A stretch of DNA of 64,000 nt, taken from Arbacia lixula. Its lineage: Eukaryota > Echinodermata > Echinoidea > Arbacioida > Arbaciidae. The position numbers and the translations under genes were made by a program. Each line of letters opens with the position of its first letter. The stretch's first letter is position 1. Shown piece by piece: positions 5,216 through 63,831 of this stretch. The stretch spans positions 18,809,736-18,873,735 of the forward strand of contig OZ022580.1 of NCBI GenBank assembly GCA_963669155.1, written 5' to 3'. The notes under the pieces were generated by a model. It was not told the origin of the DNA, made no database searches, and saw only the letters and a list, made by a program, of their open reading frames with translations.

Positions 5216-5307
5216 ATATCCCTCATTAACATATTCCAGTTCGTTGATTGGTTGAGAGGGTGTCACATGACCACAAATAGATGAACTATTTGAAGGAAGA
5301 GAGCTCA

Positions 5308-6268: not shown

Positions 6269-6589
6269 ATTAACGCGAAAAGAGTTAATATGATTTACAG
6301 CTGTGTCTGAACCTTTCTAAAGGGTCTTGTCGTTCCCACGCGTATCGGCGGTAGATTTCAAAGACAGGGCGAAGCGTATCCGTAGTTTGCGCGTCAGTTA
6401 CAATTTTGCGCGCGTGTTAATTACAATTCTGCGCGCACAATTATGCTAGCCAGAGGATGGGAACAGAGAGGCATAACTGACTGTGGATTTAGATGAAGTG
6501 GAGGTAAAAAGTTTTTAGCTCCTTTTTTTTTTTTTGGATTTCATAGATATTGGGCATAGGCTATACCGATAGGAGCGTTAGTCTGTAAA

Positions 6590-10020: not shown

Positions 10021-10042
10021 TCAAATAATGCCTTGACTAAAA

Positions 10043-10700: not shown

Positions 10701-10704
10701 ATGA

Positions 10705-11450: not shown

Positions 11451-11574
11451 ACCACACTTCAGTAACGAACAATAGCAAATCCTATTTCTGACCAGGTGGC
11501 GGAAGAAAAATAACAGCACATTAACCAAAGCCAAAACGAAGGCATTGATTAAACTTGTCTTGCCAATAGGCTAA

Positions 11575-38812: not shown

Positions 38813-38849
<37 letters not shown>

Positions 38850-41800
38850 GTAGCATATATATATACATATATCGTACATATATATATATATATATATATA
38901 TGTTTGCATTGTATGTTTGCGTACGTGGCTGTGTGTCCACGTCATTAGTGTACGGAAATGTTGTAAAAAACACTCACCACTGCATTGTAGGAGACCATTT
39001 CCTGTGTATCCCTCAGAGCAGGTACACATGTAGGTTCCATCCTGATCTTGACAGTCAGCATTAGGCGTGCACGGAGAAGACACACACTCATCGACATCTA
39101 TATGATAAAGAGAAAGAGATGGGGTGGGGTGGGATGTGAATAGAAAAAGTGATTTAAGCACCCACTATTGTCAAAATGAAAAGTATCTAACCTGCTGAAA
39201 CTGACCATTGTTTTCTTTTCATGCTGAAGGCGAAGCATAGTTGAACATCTGTGATAAAAATAACGTTGACTTTAGAGAGCTGAAATTAATTCTACTGTAG
39301 CAGCTTTGATGTATATGAAATTATATGCAAATTACAGAAACAAAATACAAACCACATTATCACAGCTTTAATTTGTTGTTCCCACACGTTTAAGCTGTAC
39401 TGCAATTCATTTCGTTTGCGAATCAATCAAGAACTATATTTCCGTTAAAATCATAATACTCGGGGATCTCTTCAATAAATTTGAGAGAAGAAAACTAATT
39501 GACATGGCAATACATTAAATTATATCTTTATAGACCTTTGCAGAATGCCATATGCTTAGTTTGGCCAAAAACATATGCTGACATTATGCTGGACTGAGCT
39601 GTATGAATGGATTGACATACAACAGGCTTTTACCAAAAAAATAATATGGTAGTATGATAGTAATATTACCACGGAATTCATACTACCACCAGTACTAATA
39701 ATCATAATAAGACTTCCACTTTTACCTCTAAAGTTACAAAGTAGTCTTCAACCTGTCTATAAAGGCGACCTGGTCTTAATAGCGACAACCTGTCAGATTT
39801 CCCTTCAGCGGCCGCTCACCACAGATTTGTTTCTATCGGGATATTACCACTACAATATAATCATGGTATTAGTATCTACTCCCTTTACGAAGGTGCAGAC
39901 ACCATAGCGATCTTTTCAATAACGGAAATATTGGTTTCTCACTTGAGCAGTTCCCTCCATTGTAGGCGTCGGTTCCGTTGTAGCCTTCACTGCACTGGCA
40001 TATATAACCTCCATCAGTGTTCATGCAGTCTGCATTGTCCGTACACACCGTCGAGTCTTCCGTACACTCGTCCACGTCTGTACAACAATCGACCAAAATT
40101 AATTTTGACACATTTTCCCCGACAATCAACATTTCCAAACCCGACCTACCCATCAAGTCGTAGAGGTGTTTTGGAATAACATTCATTAAAAGGCTACTTT
40201 ACAATTTCACTGTGCCCTCCCCGATTACCCAAATATAAGCAGAAAAGTTCCACCGCGTACAAGCCTGGTCTTTCTGTTTGATTTCCCCTACAATAGGGAA
40301 CAATACAACCACATGAGGTATATCAAAGTAAATGATCTTAGTAGAATATGGCACATGCAAGAAACAATAAAGTGAGGTTACAGTGATATTGGCGAAACAT
40401 CCTGAAAACCTCCACGCTCGATCTCACCAAAGGAGTGGACAGTATCTTCTTAAAGTGCAAGAAAGCGTAATAAGCTTACCAGAGCAATTCCTCTCATTGG
40501 CGTCAAGCATGTAGCCTTCGTCACACGAGCAAGCAAATGAACCTTCGGTGTTATTACAGGTCATCTCGCACAGACCATAAGCATCACACTCATCAATGTC
40601 TGAAAATGGATGCATAGAGGCAATGAATTGTATTAGTTTCTGAAAAAAACAAGAGTAACATATGTAGGAACATAACAGTCACTTATCTTCACATATCAAT
40701 TGATAACACGTCTCGTTGCTTATATAGGACATAACCTCGATATATCCTTACATGACAGCTGTAAGAAAAGGCCCTGAAAAACTAGGCTTCATGAAGTGTC
40801 GAACAACCTGACTTGCGTGGCTGTATTTTATATACATAAGCCAAACAGTGCATTTTGCTCATTTGTTTAGTACGGAAATTGTATCATGAAAGTTACACAC
40901 TAATTTAACATTTGATGTCAAGTAGAATAGCATAGAATAGCATGAAATTAATTAAATGGAGGATGATGGATGATGATGAAGCAATATAATGCTTTAGCTA
41001 GCGGAAGGGTGTGGTATTTCGTAGTCGATCCTTTACTTGACTTCTGATGTAGTGGATAAAGCTTCTACCCCGACAGCGGTTACATGTGGAACTCGGTCCG
41101 ACGGAAGAAATATAGGTACCTTTCTTGATAGGAACCGTCGATCATGTGTGTATCCTCACAAGATGACATCAAACAAAAACGTATCTTGACAGTGTAGACT
41201 TCACACAAAGTCCAACATCATGACGTGTGTGATTGTTTGTATTTAACTACATACAACAAACACTGTATTCTACTTATCGAATCAATAAAGAAATTATCCC
41301 ATTTAAAGAGTATACACTGTCATGTTATTTATAGAATTATCAAGTATCAAATTAGAATCAAATAAGTATAGTGGTGAAGTGGTAACAACAATTTATAATT
41401 ATATTAAAAACCTCGTGACATTTTATATTTTTCAATCTTAAAAAACCTGGAATAGTATAAATAGTTCAAATCACCAGTCATAAATGTCTCATTCAAAGAG
41501 TTGTAGAGAATATAAGGCATAAGAATGTTTTGGGGATTTTTTTTGGTTAGCAGTAATATTCTATATAGGCTACCTTATAATAGATAGTGTACTACGGTAA
41601 TTGGTGAAGAGAGACACATTTGCCTACCTTGACATGCTACATCATCCACCAGCTCGAATCCAGCTTGGTTACAGGTGCACGTGTGATTGTTATTCACAAT
41701 TACACAAATCGCACTATCATTGCATGGGTTACTGCTCGTTTCACATGTTGCATTGACATCAACTGCAACAAAGACACATGTGACATGTTAATTTCGCTTT

Positions 41801-44800
41801 ACAGTGATCGCAAAGCACAAAAAGTGTTACTAAGATTGTGAAATCCAGTGATCAATTAGCATTAAAATTCATTGTATGTATTGGCAAAAGATTTCTAGAA
41901 ATGACATATCATTGAATTCATCTTTAAATAATTATATAAACTGAACGGCATTTCCTATTTGCAAAGAAGAAAATTTCACGTCGACCAATTCAAAGGGCCC
42001 CTGTCATCAAAATATATGTTGACTTCTGTTGATGCAACTTAATATGTATATAACAAAATGACTAACTGTTCAATGGAAATGTGTCCTATATTCTTAAATA
42101 ATTTCTCTATATCTTTTTTCAGTACTGATAAGCCCCACCTCCAAAATATCCTCCAAATAAAGATTCCCCCTGTGACGTCATCAAAGGTAGAAATTAGCAG
42201 GATAGTATACATAATTTATACACAAACTCAACATTGCAATGACTACCTGCAAGTGCTTATGATACATAAATATATACATACTTCACATAGCTTGCACATT
42301 TCTGACATAAGGAAACGATTATTCCCACATGAAAGGTTGTTAGATGGTTTTGTGAGAAGAACAATGGAATAAGGGTCGGGATAGGTGTTAGTGCATCAAG
42401 AGATGGATGATAAACAGGGAAAGGACATAAATTATGCACCAGAAATAGAATTCATAGAAAGATGATATTGCAGAATCTCAAAATTACCCTTGTGACTTTC
42501 TAAAAGTCACAATTTTGCATTTAATGTGTGCTCACTCATGCATGACTGAATGGATTAATGGGATTTCCACACGGAAGTTAGTCAATGAATTCACAAACAC
42601 TTCTGCCAAATTATATTGCTCAACGTTTTTTTGATCAAAAGTTATACTATTGTGCTTGGGGGATTACTTTTTTTGTACCTTTTGTACATTTTTTTTCCTT
42701 GTAGTTTTCTGATTTTCTGGCTGCATAAAATGTATTTAGATAGTAATGCGTGATCAAGGAAAAGGCCTGACGGGCTCATATAAAGCAGTAAGGATAATAA
42801 TTTTGTGTACATGAACCTATACAAAATGTCGCTTTTTGTCAAATTTTGGTCTGACATGCGCTTCATTACAGAATGTTGCGTATCCTCTGAACGGAGTGTC
42901 CAATTTCTTAAAACATGGCCTCAAAAAGACACTTGAAAACGTAATAAAACGGCGTAACACTATATGCAGTGGTTGCATCAGTCGCGAATTTCGTACGGGG
43001 GGGGGGGGGGGGGGAATGCCACCCTCAACCGCCCCTCCCCCTCCCCCAGCCAGAATAGGATTAAATGCAAAACATGTCGATGTCTTTAGGAGAAAAAATG
43101 AAGGGATAGTGGAAACCACTACAAACTAGTATACATTCTTTGAAATCAATCACAAGTTTGAAATTCAAAAGAAAAACTTGAACGTATGTTACGTAAATTA
43201 CACACCCATTTTTAATACACGAGTTAACATTTTTGCCTTCAAGACTGCGGGTAATTACATGTACCTTCACATGTCCTGTTATCCGCTTGAAGAATAAACC
43301 CTTCGTAGCAAGAACAACTGAACGCTGGTTCATGATTGGTGCATTCCTGAGCGCAGTCGTCAGTACGTATCTGGCACTCATCAACGTCTATAAAAGGGCA
43401 AAAAATACAGGAAGGTTCGTTATTCCGAACGTTACGCGACAAATGCTCGGATTAACGAACCCTTTTTCGTTTTCGGACTAACGAGCATCGAGGTAGTAGG
43501 CAATTTACGTGTTTCGGAAATACGAACCTTCGAAATAAGGAATCGAACTGTAACCACAAGTGCCATGGTAAATAATACAGTATACAATATGAGATATCAC
43601 TCATTCTTAACCTGAGGAACACGCAAACGTCTATATCAATCTTTAATCACCTATTTATCAATATCCATATTTAAATGTGTTATCATTCAGCATTCAAGTT
43701 ATACATTATCTCTTTTGTTTTTCGAGAAATTCTGAGTTACTCTCATTTAGATCGTATCTAAACTACCCAAGGTACAATTATTAGAAGCATTCATACACAA
43801 ATATTTGACAACAAAAAGCACATTATTTGAACTATTCTTTTCACACACTGTGCAACTATCACAAATATCAGTGCGATGAAGACTTTAGCTGTGATGAAGT
43901 TATATATGACCCAATCACTGAAACTCACATATGATTATGTTACATATAATATACTTACCTGTACATGTGAAGCCATCACCCTCGTAATATTCGTCACATA
44001 GGCATGTATACGAGCCATTGGTGTTCGTACATGAAGCGTTAGGAGCACAGGGGCTGTTCTCACATTCGTTTATGTCTGTAAAACAACCACCGTGCATATT
44101 TAGATCAAGTTATGAAGTAAATCATGCTGCAGAAGCAATATCACACATTGATAAAGAGCAATGTCATTGCAATGTAATTGTTCGCATAATAAATGGATAT
44201 ATGGGTATATACCAAGGATAAATGTGGAAGCAGGAATAAAAAACCGACGCCCACACACGCACACATACACACACACACGAACGAACATACGCACAGCATA
44301 CGTACACTCACACAAAAACCAAGTACAATGCACACCTCGGAATATATTGTACAGTACAAGGTACAAATATGATGAACCACTTTTACTCAAAATAAAGCAT
44401 AGCATCGGAATGTAGGTCGGTTTTCATAATTGTTCCCACTTGAAGGTTTACCCTTCAACCATTCAAGTACACGCCCCACCCCCTTGTGTATAGCATTCAA
44501 ATGCTTGGAGAAAAGCATATAAACATGAACACTTAAACCCCTGTCTTACCCCCCCCCCCCCCCCCCCCCCGCGAAAGAAAATACTCACCCATACATGCAC
44601 CATCAGAGAAAGTATAACCGTCAGTACACGGGCACTCGTACGATCCTATCGTGTTGTTACACTCGGAACCAAATGGACAGGAAAACAGGGCTTCCACGAG
44701 GCATTCATCCACATCTGTAGTTTAACATTTAACATATTTTTATTAAAAATAAAAGTGTACATTTCCATATCCGCTAAATATCATTGGTTTGTAATGTGTG

Positions 44801-47800
44801 TTGGAGAGATTTTACAAGAAACAAGAAACCACTTGTATATATTATATTTAAGATACTTTTTTAAATCTTCATCTGTAAGCAGGTCTTGAGGTAAGGTGTC
44901 CCGTTCACAAAAAAAAAGTTATGTAGAAGGCTAGATGAATCAGCATTAAACCAAAGTATACCAGGTACGAACACTAAAAGTCCCATGGTCATAGTTCCAC
45001 TAATGACTTCAGGAAGATTGAAAACACAACCTTCTTTTCAAGCGACAAATAGTCATAGAACTTATACTATAATCAGCATAACGTGTGCTTTGCTCTGGCA
45101 TCATCTTTATCATTGTCCCCCCTCGTTTCCTGTAGTTTTAGATTTTTTGTTTATTTCGGAAAGAAGGGGGTGTGTTTTCCGGTGTTGCACCCAGTGCAAT
45201 CGAAATTTTTCAATATGGTGCGGAGAGGCGTGATGATATTCGCTGATTCGTTATCGCTAGGCTGCAGGAAATGCTGAATTTAGGACGACCCGCCCAATAG
45301 TCCAGTCGTAATCTAGCAGTCAATATCATTCGGCTTAAAATCATTTTTATTTTTACTTTTGTGAAGGGAGTCTTACCAGCCTTTACCAACTTTTTCTTAC
45401 CAGCAAGGAGACCTCAATGTCTGCTGTCTAAATGCTCTCCGAAGAAAGAAATTCTCGAAGCATTATGATAGCCCATCGCACAAATTACAAGATCCTTTCG
45501 AAAATGACTTTTGCACCCAAGGTTTGATCATGAAGACAACTATTTCATTTAATAGACTAGATCATCAACAAAGGTCAATTGAACGGAAACGTCTGTCCAC
45601 CAGTCTACTAACAATGTCTTTCCACCTGGCTGCTATGACTTGTTCCTATGATCAGAAAGGTTTTCATGCACTTCGTATAAATAAATTGTTGTGGTTTCGC
45701 ATAACACCGTAAGCGAGGTTAAGAATGGCATTGGCTTAAAAAAAACATTCATATAACATGAAATTGAAAAGAATGATTTATTGCCTCACCTGTACAATTC
45801 CGTTGATCTTCTTGGAGCATCCAGCCTTCATTACAAACACAACTAAAACTCCCAGCATTGTTAGTGCAGTTGTGCTGACACGGGCTGTCGCCCTCACACT
45901 CATTGACATCTGAAACAAAACAACAACGCATATGGAAAAGTTTGCCTTTATTTCGTCCATTTAATCGGAGCCCCCAAACCCACTTCGCACGCAAACCGGC
46001 CATTAAATTCAGGCGTGGAGTCAGTCTACACAGCGGCCTCATCAATGATGAGAGATAGACATGATAGAGGTGAGCGCGTTCCACGGAGGGGCGACACACG
46101 GGTATTGTACTTGTATTCACGTACAGTGTGTAAACGCGTACGAGATGCATGGTATTTGATGGTAGTACCTGTATTGTGTCGAGTTTCTGAACTTATGTGC
46201 ATTTAGACATTTGTACGTTATGTGATGTTTTTAAATCATTACGTGGACATGCATTTCCAATTTTGTATAAATCACGTTTTAAATTACAATCCGTCCGGTC
46301 AGCATCACGTTGTTCCTTGCGCACTAACAATGTGAGATCCCTACCATACATCACAGTTTCGACGGAAACCCGACATGTTCAAGGGTACAAATCTCACTTG
46401 TCCTAGAAAGAAGTATACTCTTATACCTATGTATTTCATCTGCAGATGCTATCTTCTCAGATAAATATGGTTGCAGTTTGTGAATCATAGAATCAAAGCC
46501 GAAAATGGAAGCAAAATCACAGGGTTTTACAGTGAGAAGTCGACGTGATCATACATAACCGCAGTCAATCATTCTTACGCTATTTTCAGTATTGCGCGCG
46601 CTCGTACGGCTATATACAAACAATAAATAAATGGGGCGACGTAAGCGCGCGCGCTGCATGAATTATCGAGCAATCATCCAATCAAAAACATTTTAACCTC
46701 ATAAGCACCGTCAATATCTAAGCTCTGTTTTGACGTGCGACGTGCTAGTGTGCTAAAAATGGCCCACACAATCAGATTTGGTGCTGGATTGAAGGCGGCA
46801 TGTTCTCCCTCAAATGGCCGAAATGCTCCTTCCTTCCATACAGAATGAGAAATTAAGATTTTACAAGAGCTCATCTGAAGCTCAATTTTGGTCCCAAAAT
46901 GAGTTCAGAGCTCGACAAAAACAATTTATTTGAAATTGAAAATTCGAAATCTCCGCTTTCATCACATTTCCATTACCCAAATTTGTTGGTCAACGGATTT
47001 TGAAATATCATGTTGAGTGTATGGTTTGGTATATTAATATACTTGTGTAAAATTGATGATCCGTAGAAATGAATGTGTATATACCCATATACCCTAAAAT
47101 CCAGGTATATCACACACATTATACGACATTACCCTTACATGACTTTAATCAGTCCGTGAGGAAGTCGCACGAGTTTGCCAAGGATGTCATGCTTTATCCC
47201 TGCGTTTTTACACCGAAAACGCGCAAAAATCCCTTAAATTTCGTTATCCGGTGCATGACAGTTTGAGTTTACCTGTGCAGGTCATGTTGTCGTCTTCCAG
47301 AAAGTACCCTTCTCTACATGAGCAATAGTAACCACCATCAGTGTTGGAACAGTTGTGTAGACATCCATGTCCCTCTCCCGAACACTCGTTAATATCTGTT
47401 CAGAAATAGACAAATTATTAATAGTTGTTCTTCCAACGTGACGTGGCGTCAGCTGGGCTGTCCAGACGACAACACCAATTACTAACACTGCTGTTAATGA
47501 TGATAATACTCAGTTTTGATGTAGTGCTTGATGTGAAATAGTATCATCTCTATGCACTTTGCGATCTTAATTCTCCGGTCAACAGAGATCTTTGTGACAC
47601 CTGTCCGTTTCCAAGGGACCATTCAGGATCACGGCAGCCACTAAATCGTACTCATTCCATTCCTATTGTGTACCCATGCATACACCTGGGTTAAGAGCAG
47701 CAATGTGAATTACGAATTTTTGCTGCAGTACACAAGTGTCATGGATGGGGTTGAAACATGGGACCTCGAGACCTCCACAGAGTGCTGGAGTGTGCAAAAC

Positions 47801-56307: not shown

Positions 56308-56339
<32 letters not shown>

Positions 56340-59300
56340 GTGTGTACCAAACAACGTTTGGTGCTGTACTACACGAACATGTAAACATGTTTTTATTGGT
56401 GGAAAAATTTATACACGGCACATAAAGTGATATTACCTGTACAATTGTCTCCCTGCTGTGTGAACCCGGTCTTACAGCTACACGTGTAGCCTCCTGGCGT
56501 GTTATCGCAGTCTGCAACGGGGTGACATATGTTTGGGTCATCAAGGCATTCGTCGATGTCCGTACATTGCGTGAAACCATCTCCTCGGTATCCCGCGAGG
56601 CAGCTACAGATGTATGATCCGTCCGTGTTACTGCAATTAGCTTGACCAGCACATACGCTGCCGTCTTCGCATTCATTGATATCTTAAGATGAATGTGGTT
56701 AGGAAGTATAATCAGCTTTGAGTATCGAATTCTCCAATGCAAGACCAAGTGGTTTCATCTTTTTTTCTTTTTTTTTTACTTCTGGCAAATGAGGCTATAG
56801 ATTTATATCTCCTGGTAAGCTATCTGGTATCTAGCGTCTTCAATTCGTAGGATGATAGCTGAATTAGAAGTTTCCTCCTCTTCGTATCGCCTGAGCTATT
56901 ATATCTTTCAAAGTTTCAGAAAATTATGCACATTTACATGTAACAATGGAAGAATCGATTTGCATAGATGTCATTGCATTTCCTTAGTCTCTAGAGCCTA
57001 AGCTTACATATGAATTGATCTGAATCCCATAAATATCAAATATCCCCCCTTTCCACCACCGTGATGATATCAAATCTGTTCTGCCAAGACTGCGGCCTGA
57101 TGATTTACGACTTCTTCCCATATCCTTAAATAACAAAGACATCCCGATTATTTTACAAATAAAACTAGATGTATCAAATAAATTGTGACCCGGATTGGAT
57201 TAAGTATCTAACCTATTACGCACAACAGTATTTCGGTTTCACCACATATGCACACATAACACATCAAACAGTACTTCCTTTGGTACAAACGGAAGGTAAG
57301 ATAACTCTCATACCTGTGCAGGTTACTCCAGAATCTTGGGAAACGTAGCCATCTCTACATACACAGGAGTAGGAGCCAAGTGTGTTGTTACAGTCCGCAT
57401 TGTCGTCACAGGGAGACGATTGACACTCATTCACATCTGTTCGATGCACACATAATATACCTTAGTTTACAAACAATGAACATTTGATAAACAGCTACAC
57501 TTCAGTGGAAACATGATCAGGGCATGGGAAAAAATGTTTCCATTGCGACAGATTACATCCAACAATAACTGTTGCAAAACATGATATTGTCAAGAGTGTT
57601 ATACATGTATATACTTTGTTATTTCCTGTGCTTACCGAAGCAGTTGAAACCATCTCCAGTGTAACCGCTCATACAGTGGCACTCAAACGATCCAACCGTG
57701 TCATTGCAGTAAGCGTCATGGCTACACGGTGTCATTCCACATTCATCGATATCTGAAATGTAATTAAAATTGAATTTAATGAGGTATCATTCTCCATAAA
57801 AAAAAGCTTAAAATCATAATTCAAGCAGAAGATATATAAAAGCTAGACGATTGTTGCCCCCAAACCCGCTCTTGTCTCACACACTAGTCATTATTTAACT
57901 ATTCTTTAAGTGCCAGATAAAATCTACATTTATTGTGCAAAAACACAATCGGCACACCAAGAGTAAATCGTACAATGTGCCACTGCTGCTTTCTCGCATG
58001 AGTGGATTACATATAAATCCCACAGAGCAGAATATTTCTTGGGCACTGGATAAGATAAAAATTAGTCGTGTTGCGATGAAACAGTACACCGAGTTATTTC
58101 CAAAAGGGGTTAAACACCACAACTACCATCATGCACAACCACTGAGTGTGATTGTTCTTTTAAAGAAGGGATTTAACTTCTTTTGTTCCCTTCATAACAT
58201 CTACCCTTCTTGCTCTCTTACAATTTCCAACATCAGTATACGTGAAGTATGATATTACACTTGTAAGGAGACAACTGTGATTCATGTTACTGCTTCATGA
58301 ATACCAGTGATATAACTAATGCATAAATTAATAAATTAGACTTAATATCTAAATATATATTTACTTTCACACTTTCCGCCATTGTAGGCTGTGCCATTGA
58401 ACCCATCTTGGCAATGGCATTCGTAGCTGCCCTCGGTGTTGGTACAGTCGGAATCTTGCACACATACGGAAGGGTCGTCCTGACATTCGTTTACATCTAA
58501 GAATCGCAGAGAGAAAACAAATCACATCCATATTTACGTGAATGAAAAACTTATATTTGTTGTGTACTTCGCATATTTATAGAAGAGGGGAAAAAGTCAA
58601 GATGAAAGAAGGAGAGGCGGTAAGAAGGAAACACGACAATAGAGAATATAGCTGACGGAAGCAGATAGACATGTCTCACATGCTATTGGCTGGACTAAAA
58701 TATTCCAAGGGTAAAGAGAGTTGTAAAATAGAAAAACATATAAACATACAATTAATACAAATCAGGCTAACAAAAACATGAAGGACATTAAGAAGAACAA
58801 AACGTGCATAAAAATACAATGTAAAGAGGAGAACAAGGAAGAAATAAAAAATGACGAAGGATGCCAACGGGGTGTGAAGAATAAAGATAATATTGAACAA
58901 AATTTCATTATTCCCACTCTCAACAATATGTTCATTCTCAGTATAGCAAATTAACAGATGGACAGAACATTCATAAGTGAAACAAGTACAATTTTGCAGT
59001 GGAACTGAGTATCTACAGCAGAGAAAGTATGTGATATACTTCATCGAAATGTTTTGTTTTCTATTTTTAAAGGAATACGCTGTGGGGAAAACTGTGATAA
59101 AAAGGCAAAAAAAAAAATACTTCTTCAACACCAACGTTTCCTAGAAGTGATTGCCAGACGCAATATAAAAGTGTATTTGGATGGGTATATGCACAAACTC
59201 ATAGGGAGCGAGGGTTGTGTGCTAAATAGTACTACATGCAAGATGAATTTAGATGAATGTTCTGGTAATATCATATGAAGTTATCGGCAAAAAATGTTGT

Positions 59301-62300
59301 TAAGTATTGGTCATAATTCATTTAAGTGGAATCAGAAAACAGTTTGTAACAAACGAAAAAAAACCCACTATCAATTGAATCTGGTTTGTTTATGTATCTT
59401 TATATTTTTAAAGAAATAAAAAAGATATATAAAACGATGACAACCTAATACAGTTCAATAAACTTGAGTGAAACGAAATGCATATATTAGACATTAAAAT
59501 ATAAAGTAAATTATTGACGTAACACATCATACCAGAACAGTTCCGCTTATTGTCGTCTAGAGCGTATCCATCTTCACAGTCACAATGGAATGACCCAAGG
59601 GTGTTATTGCAAGATGTCTCGCAAACATCGATTGTCTCACATTCGTCGATATCTTTATTTTGGGAAGAAAAGGACAAATCTTATAACATTATCACTTAAA
59701 ACAAAGATTGATCTCCATGACGGAATACAGAACATTAATACAAAGCAATTGATTTATTTTAAAAATATGTTTAGTACAAGATTATTTTTTTTTTCCTTTG
59801 GGGAGGTCTTTATATTCCTGCTAGGATTGTTTCCATTTTCCGCTGGCCGTTAAATTTAATAGACTATGCAAAGCTTTCATTTGAGGTACAAGAGGATTTC
59901 GATATAAAAACTAATAAGAACTTGCAAATTAATTGTAATGATTTTCATTCATTATCATGATACTTTTTACTTTTTTGTCCGCTTTTTTTGTCAGCCCGTA
60001 CAATGTCGCCTGGCGAGAAATGCTCCCTACCGAGTGCACACTTTGATTTCAGGCTACAAATATGTCCAGTACCAGGGATTTTTGTGGTTGGATTGGACAA
60101 GAGGTTAATAATTGAAGGATTATATTGATTACGTATATAGATGACGTATAAATACATATTTTCGTCCTTTTTCTATTTCCCTATCATTTTGCGTAAGAAA
60201 GCAAACAAAGTACGGTAGGCTGTTGACTTCAAATGGCAAGGTGAATATAAAGAGATGAATGATACCGGATGATCATTTACCCACACACGTTGTTTTATTC
60301 GAGTCTAGTTCGTAGCCTGTCACATTACAAGCACATACAGCAGTCTCATTAACAATGATGCAAACTGTGAATCCGTTCATGGCACAGTTATTAGCATCCT
60401 CCTCACAAGTAGCATTTTGAAGAGCTGTAATGGAGACACAAATCAATAAAGACATGCTATCATGATGAGCATAATTAGGCGCGGATATATTATCGTATTA
60501 TTAATTTCATTTATGTCTTCATTTTGCAGATATGTCCCTCAGTTCGTCAACTGCTTTGTAGGTGAGCCTTGCACATGTATATGAAAACAAAAATACATCC
60601 ACATATTTACATGAATTATACAATACATTAAAGAATTATTGAATAAATAACATACAAACGAAATTATATAAGTAATGTAGGAAAAAAATAGCGACGAGAA
60701 TAGACTAGAACAAAATGGTTATATTATTGGACAAAAACGTACCAATATTGCATATTTTGTTATGTATAATTTCCCAGATATCAAAGGTACCGACATTGTT
60801 ATGTCTTGTCATTAAAATACATAATAAAATAATCTGGGATTTGACTTCATTTAATTTCATTTATGTAAAGGAACCCTCAAAGAGCGAATAAGGTTTATTT
60901 TCATCACCCAGGCCGTGGCTCTAACAACACTGATAACAAACATCTTCGGGCTTTACAAATATAATACACTTTAAAACTAATGCAAAAACTATGAGAGGGA
61001 TAAACGTACAAGTCTTCGGAAACAAACAAACACACATAAACAATAATGTATAAAGTGTCACAAAGATGAGGAACCAGATGATATCACATTTACACAATTT
61101 CATTGTCAATATTTCGGCCCCATGTGCAGATGATGAAAGAGGTTCATACGTACGATAACAGGTGCGATTGTCTACATTCAGTGAAAAGCCCGATTGACAG
61201 CTGCAGTCGTATCCAGCTTCTCTATTAGTGCATTCTTGCGAGCAGTCGTCAGTCAGTAAAGCACATTCATCAATGTCTGAATTTTAGAGAGGAATAAACA
61301 TGGCATGTTGCTCCTTGATACAATATCATAACATATCAATCTCTTGAACTTTCTAACAAAACTCAAATATGTGTTTGCCACACTGGTACTGTGTGTGAAT
61401 TGCGTGTGTTAATGTATTACTGGTTAATCAAGAGGCAACCTTTAGCTAACGTAAACAGGCTGGTCCACGTGTAAAGTATATATAGGAATGGGCATAGGCG
61501 ATATAAAAAGTCAAAGAAACGACGTGACACAACCTACTTGATATGGTTGTCTTGTGTTCTATCTTGTGTCGTATCATATCAAAACCATACTCTTGTTAGA
61601 AAAATGCAACCAAAGCTATCATGTGTGTCAGTCCCCATTAGTTTGGTTGATAAAAAAATATTAACAAATATAAAGGGATGTCTTGGGATTAGTGCTGGCT
61701 TCGGGGCATTGCAAAGGCACATAACATTCTTACCTGTGCAGGTGAAACCATCTCCTTCGTAGTAGTGATTGCACATACAGCTAAATGAGCCATTTGTGTT
61801 GGTACATACTGCATTCGTATCGCACGGGCGTACTTCGCACTCATCAATATCTGGATAGGAATGAAAGGGGGTTTGTGTTAGTGGGTCAACAACAATATCC
61901 TGTAATTTTGCATGAGCAGATTCTCACTTAGAATTAAAAATCGATTGATCATTAACTCACTGTGAAAATCTATTCATTCCCCATCCCTTTACCTTTCACT
62001 GCAGTCATATCTTTTCCTTCTTATCCATATCTTCTAGATACCCCGTTTACCTTGATACCGATGTAAATTTGTCCTATTATTATCCTATTTTGTAATTTAA
62101 TAGGCCTATTGCTCTTCCGTACCTATTTATATTTATCTGTACACAATGAATTTGGTGTGTTTGCATGTTTTTATATAAAATATAAATTCCCTTCAATCTA
62201 ATTCAATTCACCTCACCGTATTTGGAAGGTTACTGATGCAGGCATGAACCCTCTTAATGACTTCATTAACATTTCTTTATCTAGGTTTATTTCCCTTCTT

Positions 62301-63831
62301 TTGTGCATTTGTGTATTTATATTTTTTTCTTGCCTGTAAGCGTGGCTGGTAACGTGTAGTACAGACCTAATACGATGGTTTGGTAACCAGAAATATAAGA
62401 AAAGTCCTGGTCCGTGCTTGAGTGTATAATTGGAATCGCAGGTGACATCCTGGGGAAATTGTACTTACCTGCACACAGTCCATCCCCAGTAGCATTGTAG
62501 CCCTCAAGGCACGGACATTCGTAAGAACCTTCTGTGTTGTTGCACTCAGAACCAAAGGGACACGAATTCAGACCATCGTTAGCACACTCATCTGTGTCTG
62601 TTTTGGTATCGAAGAGAGTGCGAGAGATAAAAACATGGTACATCGTTTAATTGCTTACTCCTCTTAAAGAACCACATGTTTTGTGTAAATGTCAAAAGAA
62701 TATCATTGAACAGAAGTCCGATTCAAAATAAATGAATATTTCATAAAAAAAAATGATAACATGGTATACGTACGAATATTCGATGAATATGTAAAACTGC
62801 ACATCTATTCAACTGTCATGCTAACAGAGTTAACTCAGGTTATGTTAGTGATCTTTAGACACTGTAAAGGCCACAATGTAATTGTAAAGATTACTACGAG
62901 AGCTGTTTAAGAAACCATAATTATTGCTATCCAAATTCAAACTATCACGCAGATTTATATCTATGAACACAAACAGAAGTTAAAACACAGTTTTATGTAA
63001 ACAAAATTAATGATCTCAAATGAAGGTTATGAGATGAAAAAAACAAGATGATCACAATGTTTGCTTAACGTGTATGTTTTGATACTAGTTTGTCTAATTA
63101 TACACCGACAAGAGATGAGTTTTATTACCCAAACACATGACTCCGTTTCCATTGAAGCCTGACTGACATTCACACATGTAGCTGCCCTGCGTGTTAGTGC
63201 AGTTTGCATTCACACTACATTCGTCAGTGCCCATATCACACTCGTCGACGTCTGTGCAATTGTTGATGTAGCCTGTTCCCGTCCAGCCTGTGTTACACGA
63301 ACAGGTGTAGAAGCCCACTTGGTTGTGACACGTGGCCTGCTCGTCACAGTCATTTAGGTCAGGTAGCATACACTCATCTTGATCTGCGAGTTGAACCAAT
63401 GGAAGAGAAATTCAGGAAAATAATGTACCAAAAGGTACACTACCCCATGCCACTTGTGTGTATTAATGCTCAAATACATACAAGGCACACGATACACAAA
63501 TCATTTGATGTATATTGCATCCGAAAGAATGTGTAATGCATGGCAAATTTCCAGGTAAACTTTCAACCAGTCTGGACTTATGAAATTAAACCATATTATG
63601 CTTTTAGAGATCGTACGCTCGAACATGAGCCTTCCTGAATACCCCACACAACACGCAGGTAATTAGCACCGTCTTATGAATGCGTTTGTAAAGTGTGACA
63701 CCAACCTGTGCAATTTCTGCCATCACCGACGTACCCCGTGACGCATGCACATATGTAGCTTCCTTGCACGTTCCCACACATGCCAACGTCATTTGCGCAG
63801 TCGTGGGAAAAGTCCAGGCACTCGTTTATAT
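12276..63831 (-). CDS. MUC4-like multi-EGF transmembrane protein, 3' part of gene (54 exons)
   Basis: The spliced gene runs right to left and its 5' end is outside the window. Joining the 54 exons listed below gives one uninterrupted frame of 8,699 bases ending in TAA at 12278-12276. Approximate residues counted from the first complete codon: EGF array 1, 1-667; SEA1, 669-779; EGF array 2, 779-1596; NIDO, 1616-1805; AMOP-like, 1866-2026; VWD, 2025-2233; C8-like segment, 2234-2318; cadherin-like segment, 2319-2416; EGF-like segment, 2417-2503; mucin stretch, 2504-2703; SEA2, 2704-2812; transmembrane helix, about 2821-2844; cytoplasmic tail to 2898. Proteins with the NIDO-AMOP-VWD set are cell-surface mucins or adhesion proteins, so a role at the epithelial or embryonic cell surface is likely, as inference. 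EGF exons are bounded by phase-1 introns, the arrangement that permits exon duplication. The species and the exact ortholog are unknown. Confidence 0.9.
12795..13110. repeat. Cluster of GGTAAC/GTTACC motifs in intron
   Basis: GGTAAC or its complement occurs many times in about 300 bp, including accattaatggtaac palindromes near 12975-12990. Some of these look like donor sites but flank no reading frame. Confidence 0.6.
13775..13835 (-). CDS. Exon 53: cytoplasmic tail
   Basis: This exon is 61 bp, phase 2 to 0, donor GTGAGTAC. It encodes [20 protein letters not shown]. The frame requires the AG at 13837-13836, five bases downstream of a canonical TTTCAG (13843-13841). Use of the upstream AG would shift the frame to an early stop. 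NPGF resembles an NPxF adaptor-binding motif. Confidence 0.62.
14440..14790. repeat. Purine-rich tract in intron 52
   Basis: The plus strand is almost entirely A and G for over 300 bp, with a poly-G run near 14608. It is open in several frames because of composition and has no protein features. Confidence 0.85.
15341..15488 (-). CDS. Exon 52: transmembrane helix and start of cytoplasmic tail
   Basis: This exon is 148 bp, phase 1 to 2. It encodes a helix ([20 protein letters not shown]), then CGCCMYMV, which could be palmitoylated, and a basic stop-transfer [13 protein letters not shown]. It ends in donor GTAAGA. If that donor is skipped, the same bases read GAG TAA and the protein stops at 15337. 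Confidence 0.88.
15926..16124 (-). CDS. Exon 51: SEA domain 2, second half, with G-S cleavage site
   Basis: This exon is 199 bp, phase 0 to 1, donor GTAAGTAA. It contains [12 protein letters not shown], with G-S codons at 16061-16056. This matches the GS(V/I)-V-V-x-L-T-(L/I) site where MUC1-type SEA domains cut themselves. The exon also encodes a second helix and NYTFASFDV. Confidence 0.87.
16920..17047 (-). CDS. Exon 50: SEA domain 2, first half
   Basis: This exon is 128 bp, phase 1 to 0, donor GTAAGA. It encodes [16 protein letters not shown] and [17 protein letters not shown]. The L-x-N-x-x-S-x-x-(F/Y)-x-x-L helix is the SEA N-terminal half. It has the same phase pattern as exon 15. Confidence 0.85.
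17837..18436 (-). CDS. Exon 49: Ser/Thr-rich mucin stretch with 22-residue repeats
   Basis: This is the longest exon, 600 bp, phase 1 to 1, acceptor TACCAG, donor GTGAGTAA. It encodes about 200 residues rich in Thr, Ser, Ala and Val, suited to O-glycosylation. Within it, units such as [20 protein letters not shown] repeat with a 22-residue (66-bp) period. One unit near the C-terminal end has lost seven residues. It ends [13 protein letters not shown], a small Cys motif before SEA2. The open frames seen on the opposite strand here are by-products of the in-frame repeat period. Confidence 0.9.
18572..19112. mobile_element. MITE-like element, copy 1, TTAA-flanked
   Basis: This is a 541-bp element beginning TTAAAGGGTTACTAATTTAG and ending with the inverted counterpart CTAAATTTAGTAACCC-type end, TTAA at 19109-19112. 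The inner part contains tttgccgcaataa / ttattgtggcaaa and tgacgt boxes arranged as an inverted repeat. It is not coding. The TTAA ends suggest piggyBac-type mobilisation. Confidence 0.75.
19362..19937. mobile_element. MITE-like element, copy 2, TTAA-flanked
   Basis: This is a 576-bp relative of the previous element in the same intron, separated from it by about 250 bp, with TTAA at 19362-19365 and 19934-19937. The middle part (accaatgg... cgcgttattgcattca) is in the opposite orientation to copy 1. Each copy is strongly self-complementary. Confidence 0.75.
20085..20240. repeat. Purine-rich tract in intron
   Basis: An A/G-rich plus strand (gagggaaggagatgaaaatagg...) of about 150 bp follows MITE copy 2. 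Confidence 0.75.
20374..20557 (-). CDS. Exon 48: EGF-like Cys-rich segment
   Basis: This exon is 184 bp, phase 0 to 1, acceptor CCCAG, donor GTAAATAA. It encodes [19 protein letters not shown] and [15 protein letters not shown]. The first part closes the EGF begun in exon 47. The rest is a second EGF-like unit. The next intron contains two TTAA-flanked MITE-like elements. Confidence 0.92.
21782..21963 (-). CDS. Exon 47: cadherin-like end and EGF-like start
   Basis: This exon is 182 bp, phase 1 to 0, donor GTAAGTTA. It encodes [20 protein letters not shown], then the Cys run [13 protein letters not shown]. It links the cadherin-like segment to an EGF-like region without the DxDEC signature. 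Confidence 0.9.
22347..22535 (-). CDS. Exon 46: cadherin/Ig-like segment
   Basis: This exon is 189 bp, phase 1 to 1, acceptor GTTTAG, donor GTACTCGT. It encodes NFPPVVDG and [15 protein letters not shown]. The N-x-P-P start and the D-P-E-G-D turn are typical of cadherin-like folds. Confidence 0.88.
22839..23093 (-). CDS. Exon 45: C8-like segment after VWD
   Basis: This exon is 255 bp, phase 1 to 1, acceptor TTGCAG, donor GTAAGACA. It encodes (W)[15 protein letters not shown], then FTPVFLSEL, then [15 protein letters not shown]. The [10 protein letters not shown] box follows VWD in MUC4 and in SUSD2-type proteins. Confidence 0.92.
24631..24744 (-). CDS. Exon 44: VWD domain, end
   Basis: This exon is 114 bp, phase 1 to 1, donor GTAAGCAT. 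It begins [16 protein letters not shown], finishing CGLLG-VWNG across the junction, and ends LFEFGQS, the F-G-x-x-W exit from VWD. Confidence 0.94.
25170..25382 (-). CDS. Exon 43: VWD domain, part 3
   Basis: This exon is 213 bp, phase 1 to 1, donor GTAATGCG. It ends [11 protein letters not shown], the start of the C-G-L-x-G-x-x-(N/D)-G motif completed by exon 44. Several N-x-S/T sequons are present. Confidence 0.92.
26423..26513 (-). CDS. Exon 42: VWD domain, part 2
   Basis: This exon is 91 bp, phase 0 to 1, acceptor CTTTAG, donor GTAAGTTT. It encodes [20 protein letters not shown], the V-(E/Q)-(V/F)-x-L strand of MUC4-type VWD. Confidence 0.88.
27202..27410 (-). CDS. Exon 41: VWD domain, part 1
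   Basis: This exon is 209 bp, phase 1 to 0, donor GTTTGTAC. It encodes [20 protein letters not shown] and GLGEY, the classic VWD opening (G-D-P-H-x-x-T-x-D-G-x-x-Y-x-F-N-G-x-G-E-Y). Confidence 0.95.
28532..28651 (-). CDS. Exon 40: AMOP-like domain, end
   Basis: This exon is 120 bp, phase 1 to 1. It ends [13 protein letters not shown] plus R. The donor GTATGT at 28531-28526 is chosen over the GTGTAT two bases earlier because only it joins in frame to the FFWGDPH start of VWD. The Y-x-x-x-R-P-x-x-x-C-x-x-Y-x-P-P string is typical directly before MUC4-type VWD. Confidence 0.85.
29073..29279 (-). CDS. Exon 39: AMOP-like domain, middle
   Basis: This exon is 207 bp, phase 1 to 1, donor GTATATGA. 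It encodes [12 protein letters not shown] and [11 protein letters not shown]. Family members usually have Q-C-C-Y at the first site; here only one Cys is present (L-C-H-Q). It matches GPGSG plus a following helix in MUC4-type proteins. Confidence 0.85.
29915..30341 (-). CDS. Exon 38: end of NIDO and start of AMOP-like domain
   Basis: This exon is 427 bp, phase 0 to 1, the second longest. Its start, [20 protein letters not shown], is the NIDO signature N-T-F-Q-x-x-L-x-T-D-G-x-x-(S/T)-x-x-x-F. It then has a charged linker and CREWH...[14 protein letters not shown], which is the AMOP start (C-x-x-W, P-C-P-x-x-x-x-Q-A-x-x-D). The donor is GTGCGTAG. Confidence 0.92.
30810..31320. promoter_or_regulatory. 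CpG-rich island in intron 37
   Basis: About 500 bp are clearly richer in G, C and CpG than the AT-rich surroundings. The island has CCAAT boxes on the plus strand at 30905-30909 and 30946-30950. It ends CTCTGCAGA followed by GTGAGT at 31292, a near-perfect plus-strand donor. There is no long open frame. It could be an internal promoter with a noncoding first exon, or a piece of mobile element. Confidence 0.4.
31409..31576 (-). CDS. Exon 37: NIDO domain, part 3
   Basis: This exon is 168 bp, phase 0 to 0, donor GTAAATAT. It opens TFSRED and later has [20 protein letters not shown], which fits the NIDO central strands (A-x-x-x-T-W-x-x-V). A CpG-rich island lies directly in the intron on its downstream (lower-coordinate) side. 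Confidence 0.85.
32017..32169 (-). CDS. Exon 36: NIDO domain, part 2
   Basis: This exon is 153 bp, phase 0 to 0, acceptor TTGCAG, donor GTGAAGAA. It encodes [11 protein letters not shown], the N-x-N-G-x-(I/L)-x-F strand of NIDO in modified form. It ends SNSAIYYQ, as in the V-x-x-(R/Y)-(E/Q) strand before the T-F-x-R motif of the next exon. Confidence 0.85.
33215..33366 (-). CDS. Exon 35: NIDO domain, part 1
   Basis: This exon is 152 bp, phase 1 to 0, acceptor CTCCAG, donor GTCAGAGC. It encodes [13 protein letters not shown] and [19 protein letters not shown]. The (Y/F)G-D start and the P-x-x-F/Y-G hydrophobic strand match the start of NIDO (nidogen extracellular) domains. Confidence 0.82.
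33520..33900 (+). pseudogene. LINE reverse-transcriptase 3' end remnant
   Basis: Two short stretches match the conserved C-terminal end of non-LTR reverse transcriptases: [16 protein letters not shown] from 33548, and, in another frame, APKL[20 protein letters not shown] then KTTLKTNLF near 33690-33775. An internal stop where Trp is usual, plus a frameshift, shows that it is dead. It ends in an AT-rich (aataat)n tail. It lies in intron 34 in the opposite orientation to the gene. Confidence 0.75.
34030..34086 (-). CDS. Exon 34: short Cys linker before NIDO
   Basis: This exon is only 57 bp, phase 1 to 1, acceptor CACAG, donor GTGAGG. It encodes [17 protein letters not shown], a two-cysteine linker, possibly a half EGF. 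The frame stays open beyond the donor. The GTGAGG site was chosen because it restores GAA at the start of exon 35. Confidence 0.7.
34508..34541. repeat. (AT)n microsatellite
   Basis: An uninterrupted AT/TA dinucleotide run in the intron between exons 33 and 34. Confidence 0.9.
35016..35261 (-). CDS. Exon 33: two fused EGF domains, end of array 2
   Basis: This exon is 246 bp, phase 1 to 1, donor GTAAGTAT. The domains start DIDEC and NTDEC, with cores [12 protein letters not shown] and [12 protein letters not shown]. Its last codon is completed by exon 34. Confidence 0.92.
35943..36179 (-). CDS. Exon 32: two fused EGF domains
   Basis: This exon is 237 bp, phase 1 to 1, donor GTAAGCGC. The domains start DIDEC and DINEC, with cores [12 protein letters not shown] and [12 protein letters not shown]. 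There is no counterpart after block A. Confidence 0.92.
36468..36713 (-). CDS. Exon 31: two fused EGF domains (end of block B)
   Basis: This exon is 246 bp, phase 1 to 1, donor GTAAGTAT. The domains start DTNEC and EIDEC, with cores [12 protein letters not shown] and [12 protein letters not shown]. It is the same size as exon 11. Confidence 0.9.
37383..37499 (-). CDS. Exon 30: calcium-binding EGF (block B)
   Basis: This exon is 117 bp, phase 1 to 1, donor GTAAGTAA. It starts [10 protein letters not shown] and has [17 protein letters not shown] long purine-rich tract begins immediately upstream of its acceptor. Confidence 0.9.
37500..37740. repeat. Purine-rich tract directly upstream of exon 30
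   Basis: The plus strand is A/G-rich for about 240 bp with a poly-G run near 37629-37640. On the minus strand this forms an extremely long pyrimidine tract ending at the exon 30 acceptor. Confidence 0.85.
38816..38901. repeat. (AT)n microsatellite pair
   Basis: Two long AT runs are separated by acacacgtagc and catatcgtac. They lie about 80 bp past the exon 29 donor. Confidence 0.9.
38978..39097 (-). CDS. Exon 29: calcium-binding EGF (block B)
   Basis: This exon is 120 bp, phase 1 to 1, donor GTGAGTG. It starts [10 protein letters not shown] and has [12 protein letters not shown]. The intron just past the donor is a cluster of (AT)n tracts (38816-38901). Confidence 0.9.
39943..40077 (-). CDS. 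Exon 28: calcium-binding EGF (block B)
   Basis: This exon is 135 bp, phase 1 to 1, donor GTGAGAAA. It starts [12 protein letters not shown] and ends [11 protein letters not shown], the same long last loop as exon 8. Confidence 0.9.
40480..40599 (-). CDS. Exon 27: calcium-binding EGF (block B)
   Basis: This exon is 120 bp, phase 1 to 1, donor GTAAGCTT. It starts [11 protein letters not shown], has [16 protein letters not shown] and ends ERNCSG. It pairs with exon 7. Confidence 0.9.
41628..41762 (-). CDS. Exon 26: divergent EGF without calcium signature (block B)
   Basis: This exon is 135 bp, phase 1 to 1, donor GTAGGCAA. It starts [14 protein letters not shown] and has [14 protein letters not shown]. 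It lacks DxDEC like its counterpart exon 6. Confidence 0.87.
42998..43014. repeat. Poly-G run with C-rich partner
   Basis: A run of about 16 G is followed within 20 bp by ccgcccctccccctccccc, so the region can pair with itself. The neighbouring ~250 bp (gaacggagtgtcc...) look like a repeat element, but I cannot name it. Confidence 0.7.
43265..43387 (-). CDS. Exon 25: calcium-binding EGF, short C3-C4 type (block B)
   Basis: This exon is 123 bp, phase 1 to 1, donor GTACATGT. It starts [12 protein letters not shown] and has CAQECTN. It corresponds to exon 5 (same length, same TDDC, QECTN and DNRTC). A palindromic repeat begins about 24 bp upstream of its acceptor. Confidence 0.9.
43411..43531. 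repeat. Inverted repeat with TTCGTTA-TCCGA motifs
   Basis: The left arm gaaggttcgttattccgaac (43411-43430) pairs with gtttcggaaatacgaaccttc (43511-43531). Between them, gctcggattaacgaa and ttcggactaacgagc are further copies of the motif in both orientations. The ~120-bp palindromic element starts about 24 bp upstream of exon 25. Confidence 0.75.
43959..44075 (-). CDS. Exon 24: calcium-binding EGF (block B)
   Basis: This exon is 117 bp, phase 1 to 1, donor GTAAGTAT. It starts [10 protein letters not shown], has [12 protein letters not shown] and ends [11 protein letters not shown]. It has the same length and ending as exon 4. Confidence 0.92.
44549..44571. repeat. Poly-C run
   Basis: A run of about 20 C sits about 18 bp from the exon 23 donor. 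Confidence 0.9.
44589..44714 (-). CDS. Exon 23: calcium-binding EGF (first exon of block B)
   Basis: This exon is 126 bp, phase 1 to 1, donor GTGAGTAT. It starts DVDEC and has [18 protein letters not shown], nearly identical to the exon 3 core. A ~20-bp poly-C run lies just past the donor. Confidence 0.9.
45790..45909 (-). CDS. Exon 22: calcium-binding EGF, short C3-C4 type
   Basis: This exon is 120 bp, phase 1 to 1. It starts [11 protein letters not shown] and has [16 protein letters not shown] and [11 protein letters not shown]. The donor is GTGAGGC. It is the last of the run 18-22. Confidence 0.9.
47273..47395 (-). CDS. Exon 21: calcium-binding EGF, short C3-C4 type
   Basis: This exon is 123 bp, phase 1 to 1. 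It starts [12 protein letters not shown] and has [16 protein letters not shown]. The donor is GTAAACTC. Confidence 0.9.
48090..48212 (-). CDS. Exon 20: calcium-binding EGF, short C3-C4 type
   Basis: This exon is 123 bp, phase 1 to 1. It starts [12 protein letters not shown] and has [16 protein letters not shown]. The donor is GTATATTC. An (AT)n tract lies about 60 bp downstream in the intron. Confidence 0.9.
48853..48972 (-). CDS. Exon 19: calcium-binding EGF, short C3-C4 type
   Basis: This exon is 120 bp, phase 1 to 1. It starts DSNEC and has [16 protein letters not shown] and [10 protein letters not shown]. The donor is GTAAGCAC. It belongs to a run of similar domains (exons 18-22) that look like recent relatives. 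Confidence 0.9.
49486..49608 (-). CDS. Exon 18: EGF, short C3-C4 type
   Basis: This exon is 123 bp, phase 1 to 1. It starts EINEC and has [16 protein letters not shown]. The usual N-x-x-G-S-(Y/F) core is replaced by DGLASSS, so the hydroxylation consensus is lost. The donor is GTAATTG. Confidence 0.85.
50523..50645 (-). CDS. Exon 17: calcium-binding EGF, start of array 2
   Basis: This exon is 123 bp, phase 1 to 1. It starts [12 protein letters not shown] and has [14 protein letters not shown]. The donor is GTGAGTTGG. Confidence 0.9.
51003..51285. repeat. 67-bp minisatellite, about four units
   Basis: The anchor atggcat/atggcac occurs at 51023, 51090, 51157 and 51224, exactly 67 bp apart. 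Each unit carries gatacttcacagtagc and gcactgcagtgt variants. The period is not a multiple of three, and the short open frames across it are not credible genes. Confidence 0.9.
51401..51972. mobile_element. Nested inverted-repeat element ending beside exon 16
   Basis: The outer ends CAAACCGGCCCC (51408-51419) and GGGGGCCGGTTTG (51953-51965) are inverted. The inner 16-mer CCTTGAAACCGGCCCC (51423-51438) has an exact inverted partner at 51755-51770. The body is more CpG-rich than its flanks and shows no recognisable protein. It stops about 15-20 bp from the exon 16 splice donor. Confidence 0.65.
51987..52206 (-). CDS. Exon 16: SEA domain 1, second half
   Basis: This exon is 220 bp, phase 0 to 1, acceptor CTCTAG, donor GTTAGTATG. 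At the beta-turn where cleavable SEA domains have G-S, the protein reads [12 protein letters not shown], so the nucleophilic Ser is Pro (codons at 52128-52123). The rest continues with an amphipathic helix and [13 protein letters not shown] repeat element ends within about 20 bp of the donor. Confidence 0.78.
52398..52537. mobile_element. Hairpin element with ~70-bp arms
   Basis: A near-perfect inverted repeat is centred on GGCTTAAGCC (52463-52472). The arms contain ctggtaaatctat and gaggtggggcgaaat with a few mismatches. A second, looser inverted pair, atatcactcat (52551) and atgagtgatat (52911), lies just beyond. Confidence 0.7.
53904..54016 (-). CDS. Exon 15: SEA domain 1, first half
   Basis: This exon is 113 bp, phase 1 to 0, acceptor CCATAG, donor GTGAGT. 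It encodes [20 protein letters not shown], then a DLIADV helix. The hydrophobic pattern and the phase change match the first half of a SEA domain. The second half follows in exon 16. Confidence 0.72.
54305..54427 (-). CDS. Exon 14: calcium-binding EGF before SEA1
   Basis: This exon is 123 bp, phase 1 to 1, with strong donor GTGAGTTT. It starts [12 protein letters not shown] and has [12 protein letters not shown]. The last loop ([11 protein letters not shown]) lacks the usual GY/GF turn. It is the last EGF of array 1. Confidence 0.87.
54723..54851 (-). CDS. Exon 13: calcium-binding EGF
   Basis: This exon is 129 bp, phase 1 to 1. It starts [12 protein letters not shown] and has [12 protein letters not shown], with an extended first loop. 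The donor is GTAAATATG. Confidence 0.87.
55279..55398 (-). CDS. Exon 12: calcium-binding EGF
   Basis: This exon is 120 bp, phase 1 to 1. It starts [11 protein letters not shown] and has [12 protein letters not shown], where alanine replaces the usual aromatic-side residue. The donor is GTATATAT. Confidence 0.88.
55663..55819. mobile_element. Short MITE-like element
   Basis: The ends GTACTGGGAAGACAAAACA and, inverted, GTACTGGAAAGACAAACAA bound 157 bp of noncoding DNA in the intron between exons 11 and 12. Confidence 0.5.
56041..56330 (-). mobile_element. tRNA-derived SINE with (AT)n tail
   Basis: On the minus strand the element reads: (AT)n, a tRNA-like head (56298-56228), an unrelated body of about 150 bp, and a second (AT)n run (about 56048-56072). 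The head has a tRNA A-box-like TGTTCTAGTGG and a perfect B box GGTTCGATTCC. A head-body-simple-tail order is the normal SINE plan. No target duplication could be defined because both flanks are AT runs. Confidence 0.65.
56228..56298 (-). tRNA. tRNA-like head or tRNA pseudogene, anticodon UCA if folded
   Basis: The 71-nt segment folds with a 5-bp T arm (CCGGG/CCCGG) and a 5-bp anticodon stem (CCGGC/GCTGG) around loop GTTCAAA, giving anticodon UCA. Only the first four acceptor pairs form (GTCT/AGAC); the next three mismatch. The variable loop is short, so it is not a selenocysteine tRNA. It is probably non-functional as a tRNA. Confidence 0.45.
56437..56682 (-). CDS. Exon 11: two fused EGF domains (end of block A)
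   Basis: This exon is 246 bp, phase 1 to 1. It encodes two EGF domains, starting DINEC and DIDEC, with TAG-type acceptor TTAAG and donor GTAATATC. It is exactly as long as exon 31, its positional counterpart, and both have C-T-(D/E)-I-D-E-C at the join. Confidence 0.9.
57314..57436 (-). CDS. Exon 10: calcium-binding EGF (block A)
   Basis: This exon is 123 bp, phase 1 to 1. It starts [16 protein letters not shown] and has the core [12 protein letters not shown]. The donor is GTATGAGAG. By position it corresponds to exon 30, which has SNADC and GSYSC. Confidence 0.9.
57636..57752 (-). CDS. Exon 9: calcium-binding EGF (block A)
   Basis: This exon is 117 bp, phase 1 to 1. It starts [10 protein letters not shown] and has [12 protein letters not shown] and YTGDGFNC. 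The donor is GTAAGCAC. By position it corresponds to exon 29. Confidence 0.9.
58365..58496 (-). CDS. Exon 8: calcium-binding EGF (block A)
   Basis: This exon is 132 bp, phase 1 to 1, donor GTAAATATA. It starts DVNEC. The last loop is long ([11 protein letters not shown]). The loop NGTxAYNGGxC recurs only in exon 28. Confidence 0.88.
59533..59652 (-). CDS. Exon 7: calcium-binding EGF (block A)
   Basis: This exon is 120 bp, phase 1 to 1. It starts [11 protein letters not shown], has [20 protein letters not shown] and ends KRNCSG at donor GTATGATG. It matches exon 27 (also 120 bp, ending ERNCSG). Confidence 0.9.
60281..60424 (-). CDS. Exon 6: divergent EGF without calcium signature (block A)
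   Basis: This exon is 144 bp, phase 1 to 1, donor GTAAATGATC. Instead of DxDEC it starts [10 protein letters not shown]. It keeps six cysteines and has a hydrophobic [13 protein letters not shown] core. The nearest relative in the window is exon 26 ([15 protein letters not shown]). Loss of the acidic start predicts no calcium site. Confidence 0.85.
61154..61276 (-). CDS. Exon 5: calcium-binding EGF, short C3-C4 type (block A)
   Basis: This exon is 123 bp, phase 1 to 1. It starts DIDEC and has the CSQECTN pattern, with three residues between cysteines 2 and 3. It ends VDNRTCY at donor GTACGTATG. A second GT four bases downstream would break the phase-1 pattern, so the first was chosen. It pairs with exon 25 (CAQECTN, DNRTC). 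Confidence 0.87.
61734..61850 (-). CDS. Exon 4: calcium-binding EGF (block A)
   Basis: This exon is 117 bp, phase 1 to 1. It starts DIDEC and ends with the distinctive [11 protein letters not shown] loop, shared with exon 24 of identical length. The donor is GTAAGAATG. Confidence 0.9.
62469..62597 (-). CDS. Exon 3: calcium-binding EGF (first exon of duplicated block A)
   Basis: This exon is 129 bp, phase 1 to 1, donor GTAAGTAC. It starts DTDEC and carries [18 protein letters not shown]. The same unusual [10 protein letters not shown] string recurs in exon 23, its likely paralogue. Confidence 0.9.
63129..63383 (-). CDS. Exon 2: two fused EGF domains
   Basis: This exon is 255 bp, phase 1 to 1. 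It encodes two EGF domains in one exon: the first starts DQDEC and the second DVDEC. The intron that normally separates them is absent. The second domain has the [12 protein letters not shown] core, which matches the Asn/Asp beta-hydroxylation consensus. The donor is GTAATAAA. Confidence 0.9.
63706..63831 (-). CDS. Exon 1 of window: calcium-binding EGF
   Basis: This exon is 126 bp, phase 1 to 1, with acceptor CAG and donor GTTGGT. It encodes one EGF domain with six cysteines. It begins D/x-I-N-E-C, the calcium-binding signature, and has the [12 protein letters not shown] core. It is the most upstream exon visible; further EGF exons probably lie beyond the window. Confidence 0.85.

Follow-up and report, generated by a model that had tools for sequence, protein, structure and literature searches.

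Two collinear runs of ten EGF domains in a large predicted gene of the sea urchin Arbacia lixula

Does an array of EGF domains grow one domain at a time, or can it gain a whole run of domains in a single event? According to the available part of a survey of domain repeats, which used vectors of length nine for clustering, such repeats often expand by several domains together, as exemplified by a seven-domain, four-exon block in nebulin; for EGF domains, growth one at a time was inferred to be the likeliest mode (Bjorklund, Ekman and Elofsson 2006, PMC1553488). The 64-kb stretch of A. lixula DNA analysed here, referred to as the window, raises this question, as its initial annotation described a nine-exon EGF block duplicated in tandem within one gene. 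Our analysis indicates, with a probability of about 0.92, that exons 3-11 and exons 23-31 of the predicted gene are two diverged copies of one ancestral ten-EGF run encoded on nine exons. This probability covers the homology of the two runs only and not the proposed steps of the mechanism.

Organization of the predicted gene

The minus strand of the window contains part of one large gene, which is predicted to encode an extracellular protein with EGF arrays. Forty exons with AG/GT borders were modelled from position 63831 to 28534, yielding a single open frame of 2023 residues without any stop codon; the start phase of exon 1 was taken from the exon's own frame, and the 5' part of the gene appears to lie past the window edge. 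The model comprises 36 EGF domains, all of which possess six cysteines, spread over 31 exons, and exons 15-16 interrupt the array (Table 1). Every one of the 31 EGF exons is flanked by phase-1 introns on both sides. A scan covering exons 1-11 matched the EGF_CA family (PF07645) with an E value of 7e-93. Downstream of the EGF array, NIDO was found with 47 bits (curated cut-off 25), and weak matches were obtained for AMOP (17.2 bits, under the cut-off of 25) and, in the raw open frame past the modelled exons, for VWD (20.3 bits, under the cut-off of 22.9). The gene is thus predicted to encode calcium-binding EGF arrays and, downstream of them, NIDO, AMOP-like and VWD-like regions, with sub-cut-off matches for the latter two. 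An assignment of exons 15-16 to SEA was rejected, as no Pfam match was obtained even at an E value of 10.

Table 1. Features of the predicted gene in the window
Feature	Position	Strand	Description
Exons 1-2	63129..63831	-	Three EGF domains 5' of block A
Block A (exons 3-11)	56437..62597	-	Ten EGF domains
Exon 6	60281..60424	-	EGF domain without calcium N-terminal motif; four N-glycosylation sequons
Exons 12-14	54305..55398	-	Three EGF domains after block A; without collinear counterpart after block B
Exons 15-16	51987..54016	-	Non-EGF segment of ~111 residues, SEA-like by eye only
Exons 17-22	45790..50645	-	Six EGF domains preceding block B; exons 18-22 mutually alike
Block B (exons 23-31)	36468..44714	-	Ten EGF domains that are collinear with those of block A
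Exon 26	41628..41762	-	Partner of exon 6, also without calcium motif; three sequons
Exons 32-33	35016..36179	-	Two double exons encoding four EGF domains; probably a second copy of exons 29-31, lying next to them
Exons 34-40	28534..34086	-	Hand-set borders; NIDO and weak AMOP match

EGF domains in series are likewise present in Notch, fibrillin and NELL2, and among the PDB sequence matches to block A, Notch1 and NELL2 were among the best, with fibrillin-1 in the best 60 of 90. The domains flanking the arrays of Notch, fibrillin and NELL2 differ from those of the gene described here. MUC4-like proteins containing NIDO, AMOP and VWD have been described in cnidarians, and the N-terminal additions of the anemone mucin4-like proteins are CUB, ZP and FN3 in the part of that study available (PMC9080433). 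The order of NIDO and the weak AMOP and VWD matches is the same in the sea urchin gene, which may be close to the MUC4-like proteins, the AMOP and VWD matches remaining below cut-off; in contrast to the anemone proteins as covered there, however, it has at least 36 EGF domains before NIDO (PMC9080433). Further along the minus strand, at 17829-18476, a Ser/Thr-rich open frame containing 4.6 tandem copies of a 66-base unit is mucin-like by eye and is possibly a further downstream part of the same gene.

Collinear pairing of the two ten-EGF runs

For the comparison of the two runs, all 36 EGF domains were aligned against one another and the scores were centred across rows and columns. The highest-scoring diagonal extends exactly from exons 3/23 to 11b/31b and has a score of 29.8, whereas the best diagonal in 2000 shuffles of the domain order averaged 7.0 and never exceeded 16.3, which bears out the claim that the nine exon pairs correspond one to one in order. 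The sum over the one-to-one pairs (34.8) exceeds that of all 200000 permutations (maximum 29.0), and the optimal assignment of the ten block A domains to the ten block B domains is the collinear one. By raw score, seven of the ten pairs are reciprocal best matches; exons 10 and 30 rank first in one direction and second in the other, and the pairs 9/29 (8th and 11th) and 11b/31b (6th and 5th) are not reciprocal best. The adjoining domains are unmatched, both on the 5' side (2b/22, -1.5) and on the 3' side (12/32a, -0.2). An extension of the block further outwards was rejected (2a/21, -1.7; 1/21, 0.4; 13/32b, -1.5; 14/33a, -0.9).

The same pairing is found in features other than the alignment scores. 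The spacing between the first and the second cysteine is 7, 4, 6, 6, 5, 6, 4, 4, 5 and 6 in both blocks, an agreement in ten of ten pairs that was reached by only 7 of 100000 permutations. Agreement is seen for nine of the ten pairs in the second cysteine spacing (2262 of 100000 permutations as good) and for merely five of ten in the fifth (7193 of 100000). The exon-length agreement was equalled by 40 of 100000 permutations, or by 336 when the double exon was left out, and the residue split by the intron preceding exons 9 and 29 is Asn in both cases, where Asp is usual. All 18 paired exons could be confirmed: they have AG/GT borders, their frames are open and their lengths are as originally given. 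The sequence signatures that had been quoted for the pairs are also present, except for the final G of the eleven-letter signature of exons 4 and 24 and of RNCSG, which results from reading a split codon through the donor; the spliced residue is Asp. RNCS is nearly matched in exon 22 as well (QRNCT). The double-EGF exon had been put forward as a further pair-specific mark, but exons 2, 32 and 33 are also double, which makes it weak evidence. Position 38978, formerly listed as the start of the duplicated interval, is the end of exon 29, and block B extends to 36468.

A maximum-likelihood tree of the 36 EGF domains, which is based on just 42 columns and whose bootstrap had not settled, recovered the pairs 3/23 to 8/28 as sisters in 951, 982, 973, 890, 965 and 979 of 1000 bootstraps, respectively. 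The pairs 9/29, 10/30, 11a/31a and 11b/31b were not recovered (0, 83, 161 and 39 of 1000), and exon 9 was placed with 33a (770 of 1000, but with an SH-aLRT of 0) and 31b with exon 13 (91/84). The initial annotation would have taken a failure of paired exons to group as nearest relatives as a refutation: six of the nine exon pairs do group in this way, whereas 9/29, 10/30 and 11/31 do not, and forcing each of the four unrecovered domain pairs was not rejected (p-AU 0.273, 0.287, 0.252 and 0.398). For these four pairs, it is the order of the domains and their cysteine spacing that point to homology. The history of a block can hence stay unsettled in trees of single EGF domains and yet show in the order of the domains. 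The tree additionally contains a sister pair of exons 1 and 17 (841 of 1000, SH-aLRT 63), which was dismissed as it is unsupported by the scores, neither exon being in the other's top four. A reading of exons 17-22 as a third partial copy was also rejected, since 327 of the 720 possible orders match blocks A and B at least as closely as the actual one; contrary to this, however, the tree places exon 18 with exons 5/25 (83/84) and exon 20 with exons 7/27 (85/78).

Age, origin and alternative explanations

Over the 402 aligned codons, 55% of the residues are alike between blocks A and B, and the agreement at third codon positions is 38%. At fourfold sites, the two blocks agree in 21 of 74 cases, compared to 770 of 2686 in unpaired domains and a composition expectation of 0.27. 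With the exons masked, a search for intron similarity returned two chance-level matches only (E 0.19 each), and the intron lengths are uncorrelated between the blocks (rho -0.19). Because the fourfold sites are at chance and the introns are without detectable similarity, the duplication is judged to be old, and too old to be dated from the window sequence. It had been proposed that the introns diverged after the copying of a segment of ~6-8 kb. The introns indeed no longer align, and the duplication of ten EGF domains is strongly supported; the 6-8 kb, however, describe the present span, and the size of the original segment is irrecoverable because the introns cannot be aligned any more. Nor are the copies in tandem: they are separated by ~11.7 kb containing exons 12-22 (three EGF domains, the non-EGF exons 15-16 and six EGF domains), and the block starts lie 19 domains apart. 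Within this stretch, four tandem copies of a 67-base unit (51011-51279) lie in the intron that follows exon 16.

Since phase-1 introns surround every EGF exon, any run of whole exons could be copied without breaking the frame. The ten-EGF run would have been copied via unequal or non-homologous recombination in introns. Exons 12-22 would then have entered or expanded later, or a larger copied unit would have shed its matching edges. Exons 32-33 probably arose when the last four EGF domains of block B were later duplicated. Expansion by multi-domain units is a known way in which repeat proteins grow, so that the event proposed here fits the general rule but departs from the tendency of EGF domains: as in nebulin and similar cases in the available part of the survey, neighbouring domains and their exon pattern would have been copied jointly within one gene, whereas, unlike its EGF inference, the unit comprises ten EGF domains with copy starts 19 domains apart (PMC1553488). 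As far as the survey text goes, the gene would clearly exemplify an EGF array gaining ten domains at once, as opposed to the one-at-a-time growth inferred there (PMC1553488). Among the titles listed in a literature search, none names such an EGF block, and the block is not put forward as unpublished.

Copying could have been confined to exons 3-8 and 23-28, with exons 9-11 and 29-31 being merely generic calcium-binding EGF domains. Tree support is limited to these first six pairs, exon 9 and 31b are placed elsewhere, and identity drops from 145 of 245 residues in the first six pairs to 78 of 157 in the last four domains, compared to a mean of 41% in the 616 other domain pairs. However, an ordered match is seen over the last four domains taken together: only 13 of 100000 random quads are as good, 9-11b/29-31b rank first among 20 consecutive quads, and the collinear order is the first of 24 possible orders. 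Their first-to-second cysteine spacing agrees in four of four cases, and the pair scores fall off immediately past 11b. A copy of the first six pairs only is thus considered unlikely.

It also appears doubtful that the two halves stem from two related genes, which were fused or recombined, rather than from a duplication within one gene. Separated copies with unmatched flanking domains, as observed here, are not expected from simple head-to-tail duplication; yet the gap between the copies is equally explained by a later insertion or by single-exon expansion, as exons 18-22 are alike among themselves in the way that single-exon growth would give, with exon 22 scoring equally high with exon 27. 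Furthermore, EGF domains share a strong common pattern, and identities among the 616 other pairs reach a maximum of 65.8%, which could raise the suspicion that the pairing reflects convergence or recent gene conversion. The match is, however, position-specific across ten domains, and fourfold sites at chance level argue against recent conversion, so that this explanation is highly improbable.

A probable second copy of four domains and a possible hinge

Under the favoured reading, an ancient copy of a ten-EGF run within one gene, exons 32-33 are likely an adjacent, later copy of the last four EGF domains of block B (35016-39097 for exons 29-33), a copy that the initial annotation did not mention. 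The domains 29, 30, 31a and 31b match 32a, 32b, 33a and 33b in order with a sum of 8.78, to which none of 100000 random quads is equal; 1 of 5000 shuffles was as good in an adjacent-quad test, and when block A was left out, the best diagonal was equalled in 14 of 3000, the quad length of four having been picked post hoc with the data already seen. Exons 32-33 are closer to block B (8.78) than to block A (3.62), suggesting an origin after the copying of the ten-EGF run. The single exons 29 and 30 would in this case correspond to one double exon, exon 32. Of the four pairs, the tree joins only 29/32a (770 of 1000), and forcing 30/32b or 31a/33a was not rejected (p-AU 0.24 and 0.234). Against such a copy, 32a is nearest to 33a and 32b nearest to exon 24 by score.

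In exons 6 and 26, an aligned NAT-C replaces the calcium motif, and both have an N-glycosylation sequon immediately ahead of their first cysteine. In view of what is generally known about calcium-binding EGF pairs, each block might form a rod stiffened by calcium, whose weak point would be the fourth domain with its missing calcium motif. Several exons speak against such a hinge: according to the patterns used, exon 18 also lacks both calcium motifs, 31b fails the N-terminal calcium pattern and exon 12 the hydroxylation pattern, and 31b and 33b each carry three sequons, the same number as exon 26. The failure of exon 1 in the N-terminal pattern is an artefact, as the residue preceding it is not in the model. 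These counter-examples further lower the likelihood of a wider reading, which seems rather improbable: that selection acted on the ten-EGF run as one structural unit, a rod stiffened by calcium and hinged at its glycosylated fourth domain, and that the array grew by nested runs of ten and then four domains at phase-1 introns. If true, this would run counter to one-at-a-time growth of EGF arrays.

Two other repeat regions are present in the window. An inverted repeat at 18570-19939, with arms of ~578 aligned bases and 82% identity, resembles a foldback element, and positions 4360-11549 are densely packed with diverged repeats in direct and inverted orientation, among them tandem arrays of 144-166-base units.
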